Source: Punctularia strigosozonata HHB-11173 SS5 (lineage: Eukaryota; Basidiomycota; Agaricomycetes; Corticiales; Punctulariaceae). Taken from it: DNA of 64,000 nt. This document shows positions 35,604-47,962 of the stretch, one piece after another. The notes below the pieces were generated by a model. The model ran no database searches, was not told where the DNA came from, and worked only from the letters and a program-made list of their open reading frames with translations. The stretch is taken from NCBI RefSeq assembly GCF_000264995.1, contig NW_006767434.1:1499998-1563997 (forward strand), given 5' to 3'. The position numbers were made by a program, and so were the translations under genes. Each line of letters begins with the position of its first letter. Positions within the stretch are counted from its first letter, which is position 1.

Positions 35604-36221
35604 ATGGCCGCGGCAGGACGGATATCCCACATATCCCGATTATTCAGTCCAACTTATGCCGCAAGGATGAACGCTCAAATTGTCTATCCTGCGTCGTCTA
35701 CTGTCGTCAAACCTAACGAGTTGGCCTCGGCGCTTGCACGGCCGGTTATGACCGCCACGTACGAACCCGAGCGTCCTCTGACGTACTTAGCGGCTACTCT
35801 CGCCTACGGAATCATCCAAGGTACGTACGGGCTCTTGGTGATCGCAACCCGTGCTTCATATCAATGCTGCTGCTTTGAAGGGCATCCATTCTTTGATGGC
35901 AATAAACGCACTGGTTCGTGACATCTTCTAGTGATGCAGTGCGGATCGCTGACGCGCAGGTGAGCAGCATTCTTTCTAGCCAACGAGCTCATGCGCGCCT
36001 ATGGGGTTCCGGGCCTCGTTGAGCCGGAAGAAAATGGCCTCACAACTGAAGCTCTGCACGAGCTGGCGGATCGACACGTCAACGTAGCCCAAGGGAATCT
36101 CGGCGTAGACGGACTGGCGTACGCAGAGCTTAATCAGCGGAGTAGGTTGCCCGAAGGGTGTGCACTCGCCGGCGCTAACGCACTTTCCAGGAAAGCAGGC
36201 TGCTCAGAACGCAGCCGATAG
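35604..36221 (+). CDS. Doc/Fic-family protein, copy 1
   Basis: Three exons (35604-35820, 35881-35913, 35968-36221) give 168 codons, 167 residues. The central motif is HPFFDGNKRTAFFLAN. The GNKR form (Lys in place of Gly) is the mark of the Doc subgroup of Fic proteins, first known from bacterial toxin-antitoxin pairs. Bacterial Doc phosphorylates a translation factor, whereas classical Fic enzymes transfer AMP. All motif residues (His, Phe, Asp, Gly, Asn, Lys, Arg) are present, so the protein may be active; the target in this fungus is unknown. Over the 62 residues from RLFSPTYA to GIIQG it matches copy 3 at 54 positions by my count. The middle exon of 33 nt holds the HPFFDGNKRT motif. The C-terminus after GLAYAEL is longer than in copy 3 and could hide an unspliced intron. 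I see no Phd-like antitoxin gene nearby. Confidence 0.8.
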
Positions 36222-36969
36222 ACCCTGCTACATTTGATATGCACCGTATTATCGAGAAATGCAAATTCTGAGGGCATCATCTGTGCATCGTCGAACTTGC
36301 TCCCCGAATCGTCTACTTCCTGTGCGGTTTATTCAGTCGTATCACTCCGGACGTTGACTTAGATGTGCTATAACCGCAAAAGCGCATATCGCCGAACACA
36401 TCCTAAATCCATGGATTGAGGATGTGTTCGGCGATATGCGTCCAGAATTGGGCGCTGATGACACTGCCAGTCACCGTCCACATTGTAGATTGTTGTTGCA
36501 CCACCGCGGTTTACCGGATGATGCGCCCTCGTCGGAGGCTGCTCTCGTACTTAATTGGAACGCTATCTAATGAGGTGTGGACCTCGGTTGAACCACACAA
36601 CTCCGAATCCCGGAACACGCGCGCTGCTGATCCTCAACCCGCGGCCGCATTTGCGCACTTTGAGTGATCTAGAATAGCACCTGTATCTGCACCACAGGTA
36701 GTTGTTTGTGTTACGTGAATTCGATCATACTAGGAAGACCGCGATGCCCACAAAGCCCCTCTACGCACAGTACCGGGTGTCTATGATATATTCCACGCAT
36801 ATTGAAATTGGAATTAAGATGGTACGTTGCAATTGGCTACGGATACACGTCCAAGGCCCACGAAGATCCAAAAGGCAAGGAAAGATTCAAACAGCAGAAA
36901 AGCAAAGAAAGTGTACAGCAACAGAGTGATGAATATGATGGACCAACCGTATCAGCACCTGCTAGATCC
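36222..36969. other. 748 bp spacer holding a long palindrome
   Basis: Lies between Doc copy 1 (plus) and the 3' end of the RasGEF gene (minus). The only notable item is the palindrome at 36383-36440. Confidence 0.45.
36383..36440. repeat. 58 bp near-perfect palindrome
   Basis: The arms CGCATATCGCCGAACACATC.. and ..GATGTGTTCGGCGATATGCG are exact reverse complements. They continue to a centre CCATGG, with a single mismatch (A36405 opposite G36418). By my pairing, 28 of 29 positions match. There is no loop, so it could extrude a cruciform or form a hairpin when transcribed. I see no second copy in the window. Confidence 0.95.
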
Positions 36970-46766: not shown

Positions 46767-47428
46767 TGGATGGTTGTTCCTGTGTACTCGATCTCGTCAA
46801 TACATGGACCAACGATCTCGGAAACTCCTCACCGTGCGTGCAAAGGGAGTAAGTAGGACGTCAGGAGCGTTTGTGGTGCTTGACCGGTGTCTTCATACCG
46901 ATGGAACTCAGGTAATTTATACTGTAATTCTCCATTGAACAGCCGCAGAGAAAACCCATTGCCCAGCGGTGAAGTGCCGTACCGCCTTGCCCATGGAAGA
47001 CTGCGCAAAGTGTGAGGGGCTGAGGGGCGCTACGGCACCTAACTTGATCAACTTACAGGATCCTCCGAGCACGAAGCATACCGCTGAGATAACTATCAAT
47101 GCGTAGCCTTCGCCAGTGCTCAGCTATACAACGCCTGGAAGAGAGAGCTGGGCAATATAAGATGCCCTGACCAAGGACCCACCATTTCGCTCGGCGGAAC
47201 AAGTGCTGTGTATCTGGCCGAACATGCGACGACACCGAACGATAGCACCAGTTCAAGGATGCCAATCTCGGACTTCTTTGGCCATTATGGTGCTCGATGC
47301 AGGATGCCTCTAATCGATATTTGGGGAAACTGGTATACGACAAAACGAGCCGTTATCAACCTGGGACAGCGCACCGGGCTGGGGCGATCGAGTGAGTGTG
47401 AGAAAACGAAGAGAGACGCGACATACAG
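46767..47428. other. Spacer between Doc copies 2 and 3
   Basis: 662 bases, both neighbours on the minus strand. Short frames here show no recognisable domain. It must contain the promoter of copy 2. Confidence 0.4.
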
Positions 47429-47962
47429 CTATGGTCCGACATCTCCTGGTAGCTTGTATTCCAAACCGTCGACACCTAAGTTCCCTTGTGCTACACTTAT
47501 ATGCCGGTCTGCTAATCGTATCAGCTCCTCGGGTGTGAGGGTATCGCCATCTTGAGCAGTCAGACCACGAAGACCGCATATCCGCATGAACTCGTTCGCC
47601 AGGAAGAATGCTGTCGCAAGAGTCAGCCATGTGATCACACTGCGTTGGCAAATGAGCCAACCTGTCCGCTTATTACCGTCAAAGAATGGATGCCCTTGGC
47701 GCACTATATCAAGATGCAAACTGTTCGACTGAAGTGATGCTCCACGCGTACCTTGAATGATACCGTAGGCGAGCGTGGCGGCCAGATAAGTGACAGGTCG
47801 GTCAGGCTCGTAAGTAGCCGTCATAAGGGGTCTCGCGAGAGCCGAGTACAGCTCGTTCGGCTTGACAACCGCATGAGATGCAGGGTAGACAATTTGGGCA
47901 TTCACCCTGGAAGCATAGGTAGGACTGAACAATCGGGCTACATGGACTGCACGCGATACCAT
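47429..47962 (-). CDS. Doc/Fic-family protein, copy 3
   Basis: Three exons (47962-47752, 47694-47662, 47610-47429) give 142 codons, 141 residues. The catalytic motif is HPFFDGNKRTAFFLANEFM. The 33 nt second exon carries HPFFDGNKRT, with the same intron positions and phases as copy 1, so the two are duplicates that post-date intron gain. Without splicing the frame also stays open through both introns, which would insert residues inside the motif region; the spliced form fits the family better. The start at MVSRAVHVARLF corresponds to the start of copy 1. It ends GVDGLEYKLPGDVGP. The likely biochemical role is transfer of a phosphate or nucleotide to a hydroxyl on a target protein, as in the Doc/Fic family. 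The target is unknown. Confidence 0.82.
   Translation of the reverse strand: MVSRAVHVARLFSPTYASRVNAQIVYPASHAVVKPNELYSALARPLMTATYEPDRPVTYLAATLAYGIIQGTRGASLQSNSLHLDIVRQGHPFFDGNKRTGWLICQRSVITWLTLATAFFLANEFMRICGLRGLTAQDGDTLTPEELIRLADRHISVAQGNLGVDGLEYKLPGDVGP

Follow-up and report, generated by a model that had tools for sequence, protein, structure and literature searches.

Doc-type Fic genes of two classes in Punctularia strigosozonata and other mushroom-forming fungi

Introduction

The Doc toxin of phage P1 phosphorylates the elongation factor EF-Tu at T382 (PMC5851678; papers are cited here by PMC number, from excerpts of their text). The Doc motif has been defined as HxFx(D/N)(A/G)NKR, and that of the canonical Fic proteins, which transfer AMP to their targets (AMPylation), as HxFx(D/E)GNGR (PMC4177925). 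Canonical Fic proteins have the GNGR motif, and those of the HypE type also have a membrane helix and TPR repeats (PMC2686095, PMC4177925). A eukaryotic Fic enzyme AMPylates the elongation factor eEF1A2 at a site structurally equivalent to T382 of EF-Tu (PMC5851678). Here we describe three Doc-type Fic genes in a 64-kb stretch of DNA (the window) from Punctularia strigosozonata HHB-11173 SS5, an agaricomycete of the order Corticiales (Basidiomycota). The genome comprises 33.6 Mb in 32 contigs, and the window is C2:1499998-1563997. The genes belong to two paralogue classes, and it is probable, in our view, that they represent a domesticated pair of bacterial Doc phosphotransferases that lives without a recognisable antitoxin and whose loop before the catalytic core has changed.

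A paper of 2009 noted that 'a few fungi' have fic and doc sequences (PMC2686095). Transfers of Fic/Doc genes from bacteria to eukaryotes were inferred in 2015 for groups termed E1-E4, a history like the one proposed here; the words fungi, fungal and Basidiomycota are absent from the main text of that paper, as excerpted (PMC4454073). A 2012 survey, in the part cited, lists Tox-Doc for Actinobacteria and gamma-proteobacteria only, and reports at least 13 toxin domains in fungi (PMC3482391). The words Fic and Doc are also absent from the excerpted main text of a study of transferred genes in 829 fungal genomes (PMC11708051). We found no description of paired Doc genes in Agaricomycetes in the open-licence literature, and an earlier description elsewhere is possible.

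It seems that mushroom-forming fungi have turned a bacterial toxin to their own use. The family has the Doc motif, introns, two paralogue classes and a distribution over at least ten orders of Agaricomycetes, with no recognisable antitoxin in the one genome searched. It makes testable the question of how a eukaryote tames a translation toxin, and whether the kinase chemistry was kept for the cell's own control. There are mushrooms suited to experiment, and the proteins themselves are small and intact.

The three genes of Punctularia

A preliminary description of the window, made from the sequence alone, reported three Doc-type Fic genes with an intact HPFxDGNKRT motif, here copies 1, 2 and 3 (Table 1). 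Profiles, a motif count and gene models all confirm them. The three copies score above the cut-off of 24 bits of the Pfam Fic family (PF02661; copy 2, 48.4 bits; copy 3, 46.0; copy 1, 38.1) and above that of 38.65 of the NCBIfam model TIGR01550 DOC_P1 (40.4, 44.3 and 38.8, respectively), although copy 1, scored with its public gene model, clears the latter barely. The profile check that had been proposed therefore places all three inside the Fic/Doc superfamily. The pattern H[PA]Fx[DE]GN[KG]R, counted in six frames over the 64 kb, gives three matches, which are the three copies, and none in 20 mononucleotide shuffles. All three have the Doc motif with lysine at position 8, and none has the canonical AMPylator motif, since this lysine stands in the place of glycine.

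The predicted structure of copy 3 is a short helical Doc fold. Its best structural match is clearly phage P1 Doc, to which it aligns over residues 7-138, with about six extra residues at the N-terminus; Fic-1 and FICD are also among the matches. A sequence search of solved structures with copy 2 as the query gave just two weak Fic rows (E ~0.4). The fungal proteins are like P1 Doc in having the Fic/Doc domain over both cut-offs, HxFxDGNKRT with its lysine and a helical fold of Doc size. They differ from the Phd-Doc system in being products of eukaryotic genes, two of which have introns, in forming two paralogue classes, in the loop before the SALARP helix (GGxxGxRD is absent, and a histidine of helix 1 is replaced by asparagine) and in the lack of Phd and MazE family matches in the genome. 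From FICD/HYPE and Caenorhabditis elegans FIC-1 they differ by the GNKR sequence and by consisting of short single domains.

Searches of the whole genome with copies 3 and 2 as queries matched the three places in the window. No fourth copy was found in the 33.6 Mb by these searches, which were blind to introns and scored the best candidates, and which a strongly diverged copy could escape. The Pfam Fic profile alone matched only copy 2 in the genome, because introns split copies 1 and 3. As a correction to the genes as first described, copy 1 is not a single open frame and contains two GT-AG introns, copy 3 also has two, at matching protein positions, and copy 2 has none. Once spliced, copy 3 gives exactly the public protein PUNSTDRAFT_81884; the public counterpart of copy 1 is PUNSTDRAFT_97372. 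The latter is four residues short; these four are kept by the splice site chosen here and are conserved in the family, and the public model apparently uses a later splice acceptor (region 35914-35980). Among the protein matches listed, the only row identical to copy 2 is a nameless piece of 106 residues, marked as the window's own; a named entry for copy 2 thus seems to be missing from the public proteome. Contamination is ruled out by the introns, the fungal neighbour genes and the 2.9 Mb scaffold. A mobile element was also considered and rejected, as the flanks of both places have no repeats elsewhere in the genome.

Two classes in mushroom-forming fungi

Over 130 residues, copies 1 and 3 share 76% identity, and they are termed class A; copy 2, with about 41% identity to each of them, is termed class B. 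In an alignment of 133 codons, copies 1 and 3 have 29 differences at first, 20 at second and 76 at third codon positions. The non-synonymous divergence (dN) is 0.18 (NG86) to 0.19 (LWL85), and the synonymous divergence (dS) is 2.04 by LWL85 and undefined by NG86. This points to purifying selection on an old duplicate, by a rough measure from one pair with saturated dS; the duplication is considered old because synonymous sites are near saturation. The view that the catalytic residues are kept and that the genes look selected agrees well with the intact motif and with differences that fall mostly on third positions. The preliminary description had also proposed local multiplication. As one burst, this does not hold, because the close duplicates are just copies 1 and 3, and these are old; copy 2 is of a separate fungal class that has members in other mushrooms too.

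The protein searches gave 542, 582 and 7763 matches, of which the best 120 of each were shown, and they hence imply no absence from other fungi. Every row that carries a species name among the best 120 of the 542 matches of copy 3 is from a mushroom-forming fungus (ten species were looked up in the taxonomy). Class A is present in at least ten orders (Corticiales, Gomphales, Hymenochaetales, Auriculariales, Boletales, Thelephorales, Russulales, Polyporales, Agaricales and Atheliales), with approximately 45-65% identity to copy 3. The matches listed for copy 2 have one named fungal relative, from Mycena vitilis (52%), followed by bacterial death-on-curing proteins. A profile of nine class B proteins brought more of this class among the matches listed, from Phlebia, Rickenella, Mycena pura, Agrocybe chaxingu, Hohenbuehelia and metagenomes. 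Class B is found in at least five orders (Corticiales, Gomphales, Hymenochaetales, Polyporales and Agaricales); its record in Gomphales is a fragment of 73 residues, the eight best matches of which are all class B.

Bacterial relatives and the changed loop

A tree was built from 36 class A, 19 class B and 51 bacterial rows, the latter being every second of 80 genome loci and 11 proteins. The A and B labels were fixed before tree building, from the earlier comparison and the match lists. An alignment of 145 columns was analysed under LG+G4, with a bootstrap that had not settled. The 55 fungal rows are split from the 51 bacterial rows at 100/100. Class A is a clade (98/84), class B stands on one side (77/94), and copies 1 and 3 are sisters (100/100). 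A second tree of 94 rows, which included five phage Docs and a reduced class A of 19 rows, has the 38 fungal rows in one clade (100/99) and class A again as a group (100/99). There class B splits, with three of its rows joining A at 95/95, and class A may therefore have arisen out of B as an older grade. The branch of the fungi is long, and with the phage Docs added, a long-branch Rhizobium phage Doc stands beside the fungi, a placement that the tree program flags as unsafe.

The closest bacterial kin kept from the genome scan are 80 of 480 confirmed loci (L072-L151), with 36-64% identity in the best segment; on viral contigs 58 loci matched. The bacterial origin considered in the preliminary description is well supported by the fungal/bacterial split and by these kin with their antitoxins (see below). 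The Doc/Fic tree suggested there has the fungi as one group apart from the bacteria, and it points to no particular donor or place of nesting inside them. The topology fits a single old transfer, presumably in the direction of the fungi, with later duplications. Two separate transfers for A and B are disfavoured, as all fungal rows are on one side at 100/100.

The catalytic end of the motif, G(N/D)KRT, is kept in all 55 fungal rows. The loop GGxxGxRD, present in 48 of the 51 bacterial rows, is found in none of the 55 fungal rows, and class B mostly retains just its first glycine. VKxxE is present in 52 of the fungal rows and in one bacterial row. In addition, the helix-1 histidine, found in 98% of the bacteria, is asparagine in every fungal row. 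The position of the GGxxGxRD loop is, we assume, on the substrate side of the Fic fold, and with its replacement in the fungi the target or the affinity has therefore probably changed. It is sensible to read the alignment as indicating that the reaction was retained and the target or affinity altered.

The antitoxin question

Sufficient upstream sequence is available for 78 of the 80 bacterial doc loci. An AbrB/MazE-like core, recognised by a short pattern in a reading frame, lies just upstream in 74 of these 78, and the downstream control gave 3 of 78. Three of the upstream examples were compared with Pfam, two scoring over the MazE cut-off and one under it. The doc genes of this set are mostly found behind MazE/AbrB-like, and not Phd-type, antitoxins.

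These modules, from Proteobacteria and others, have an antitoxin-like core directly upstream, whereas the family was not found in the fungus. PF02604 and PF04014 (the Phd and MazE families) have no match in the whole Punctularia genome, although an antitoxin of another family or one split by introns could escape; as a control, the profiles gave matches in 8 and 9 of 14 genomes. The fungus therefore seems, by its sequence, to carry the toxin gene without an antitoxin. The cognate antitoxin that stands beside the toxin in type II modules was not found here. The observation that no recognisable antitoxin neighbours the genes has thus been upheld, and extends for these two families to the genome. 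A built-in antitoxin helix is unsupported, as copy 3 exceeds Doc by just the few N-terminal residues mentioned above.

Neighbouring of classes A and B

In Punctularia, copy 3 (class A) lies upstream of copy 2 (class B) on the same strand, 662 bp apart. Both classes apparently stand together on two metagenome contigs, one of 4495 bases (P0035, A; P0100, B) and one of 16845 bases (P0025, A; P0102, B). A protein of Phlebia brevispora (P0243, 324 residues) has a B domain and, after it, an A domain, which contains foreign residues at the site of intron 2; the protein most likely represents two adjacent genes merged by the gene caller. In Ramaria rubella a class A gene (tag 1627585) and a B-like fragment (tag 1627581) are on contigs of equal size, and in Rickenella mellea and Mycena pura A and B are on equally long scaffolds, with the spacing not given. 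An interface between A and B was sought by folding the Phlebia fusion; the model was of low confidence and was not used.

A separate observation concerns class A. Two distinct class A proteins, P0022 and P0266, are each on a contig of 901 bases, possibly the same contig with an A-A tandem.

A proposed role and its alternatives

A bacterial antitoxin-Doc module probably supplied its toxin gene to an ancestor of the mushroom-forming fungi. The gene would then have gained introns and duplicated into classes A and B, and class A would have duplicated again in the Punctularia line to give copies 1 and 3. Most likely the proteins still act in the manner of Doc, in that the motif histidine would activate a hydroxyl of the target protein, and the lysine of HPFxDGNKRT would hold ATP in an inverted pose, so that phosphate and not AMP would be transferred. 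The most likely kind of target would be a GTPase, putatively one such as eEF1A. One sequence of the fungus (L159), probably its own eEF1A, carries a threonine in RQTVAVG, presumably the site matching T382 of EF-Tu. A and B probably act together, perhaps in a regulatory role, and their mutual pairing may replace restraint by an antitoxin.

A more definite form of this would be a toxin-toxin pair: class B would do the antitoxin's work by holding A in a heteromer, or A would hold B, and once the pair is released a fungal GTPase such as eEF1A would be phosphorylated and growth slowed. It would explain both the A-B neighbouring in several orders and the finding of no known antitoxin in Punctularia. 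The Doc protein of Enterococcus faecalis is restrained through dimerisation, which is there caused by the antitoxin (PMC13034048). We consider a toxin-toxin pair of this kind, the boldest of the readings, quite unlikely.

Several points weigh against a domesticated pair that acts jointly. Most species have class A alone among the matches listed. Closeness of A and B is seen in few cases, and beyond Punctularia and Phlebia a shared contig is deduced from equal listed sizes, without coordinates; in Grifola and Hohenbuehelia the two classes are on contigs that differ in size. The fused Phlebia model folded poorly (predicted local distance difference test, pLDDT, 66; predicted template modelling score, pTM, 0.49), with no A-B interface seen. 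The ratio dN/dS comes from a single paralogue pair with saturated dS, and the antitoxin search covered one genome and two families, with introns disregarded. As to the trees, the alignment columns are few for the number of rows, the bootstrap is unsettled and class B splits once the phage Docs are added. Three fungal rows (two of class A and one of class B) deviate elsewhere in the ten-residue motif. Finally, the changed loop weakens the argument for eEF1A by analogy.

Doc proteins might instead be kept as toxins against viruses, mobile elements, bacteria or incompatible fungal partners, and be switched on at need. The toxin ancestry, the duplication within a lineage and the presence of class B in fewer species than class A (among the matches listed) would suit such an effector, which we regard as possible, if unlikely. 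For the self/non-self or antimicrobial role raised in the preliminary description, the analysis gave evidence neither way. Copy 3 is a Doc-sized single domain with so few extra residues that it carries no fused killing domain and, judged by its length, hardly has space for a signal peptide. Of 26 single open reading frames of the window compared with Pfam, many have no match, one has a weak F-box LRR match, and those over the cut-off are not of the nucleotide-binding leucine-rich repeat (NLR) or heterokaryon incompatibility (HET) type. PADLOC matches are weak and located around the Fic motif. The identity of class A proteins to copy 3 across ten orders, approximately 45-65%, also speaks against an effector of conflict; such change is slow for an arms-race gene. 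A selfish or addiction element, i.e. a toxin gene that spreads in the genome or holds itself in place, could likewise be suspected from the toxin ancestry, the local duplication and the presence of three genes in 12.4 kb. However, the Phd and MazE families and further copies were not found in the genome, the flanks of both places are not repeated elsewhere in it, and the distribution of class A across ten orders of one fungal class looks inherited and not mobile. The selfish spread considered in the preliminary description is poorly supported given the lack of further copies and repeated flanks in the genome, and we give it almost no weight.

The possibility that the proteins are active nucleotidyl transferases, i.e. 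AMPylators and not kinases, appears very unlikely. It draws on the Fic fold, on Fic-1 and FICD among the structural matches, and on the AMPylation of eEF1A2 by a eukaryotic Fic enzyme (PMC5851678). Nevertheless, P1 Doc is clearly the best structural match, and the motif has lysine where AMPylating Fic proteins have glycine, a difference said to force the inverted pose of ATP (PMC4177925). It is scarcely credible that the genes are decaying remnants of an ancient transfer that no longer serve any function. In favour of this, the family includes proteins that are incomplete or appear to run on into introns, as three do at the site of intron 2 of copy 3, and copy 2 has no named public protein among the matches listed. 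Yet the frames are intact once spliced, the motif is kept in nearly all rows, and the differences are mostly at third positions.

Gene structures and neighbouring genes

Table 1. Doc-type Fic genes, their introns and the genes between copies 1 and 2 (window positions)
Feature	Positions	Strand	Remarks
Copy 1, class A Doc-type Fic gene, PUNSTDRAFT_97372	35604..36221	+	three exons; spliced 167 residues, public model 163 residues
Copy 1 intron 1	35821..35880	+	60 nucleotides, GT-AG
Copy 1 intron 2	35914..35967	+	54 nucleotides, GT-AG; both in-frame stops inside
RasGEF with SH3 domain (exons)	36970..42211	-	between copies 1 and 2, outside the Doc pair
DEAH-type RNA helicase (exons)	43753..45317	+	between copies 1 and 2, outside the Doc pair; Pfam matches from 44112 on
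Copy 2, class B Doc-type Fic gene	46365..46766	-	intronless, 133 residues; no named public protein listed
Copy 3, class A Doc-type Fic gene, PUNSTDRAFT_81884	47429..47962	-	three exons, 141 residues
Copy 3 intron 1	47695..47751	-	57 nucleotides, GT-AG; protein position as in copy 1
Copy 3 intron 2	47611..47661	-	51 nucleotides, GT-AG; protein position as in copy 1

The recognisable neighbours are of the housekeeping type (RasGEF, DEAH helicases and SEN1) and tell nothing about Doc function. Around copies 2 and 3, within approximately 16 kb (43753-59650), there are three helicase genes, two of the DEAH type and one for SEN1, an RNA-processing neighbourhood that may be due to chance. Just downstream of copy 1 there is a near-perfect palindrome of 58 bases (36383-36440), which matches its own reverse complement at 97%.
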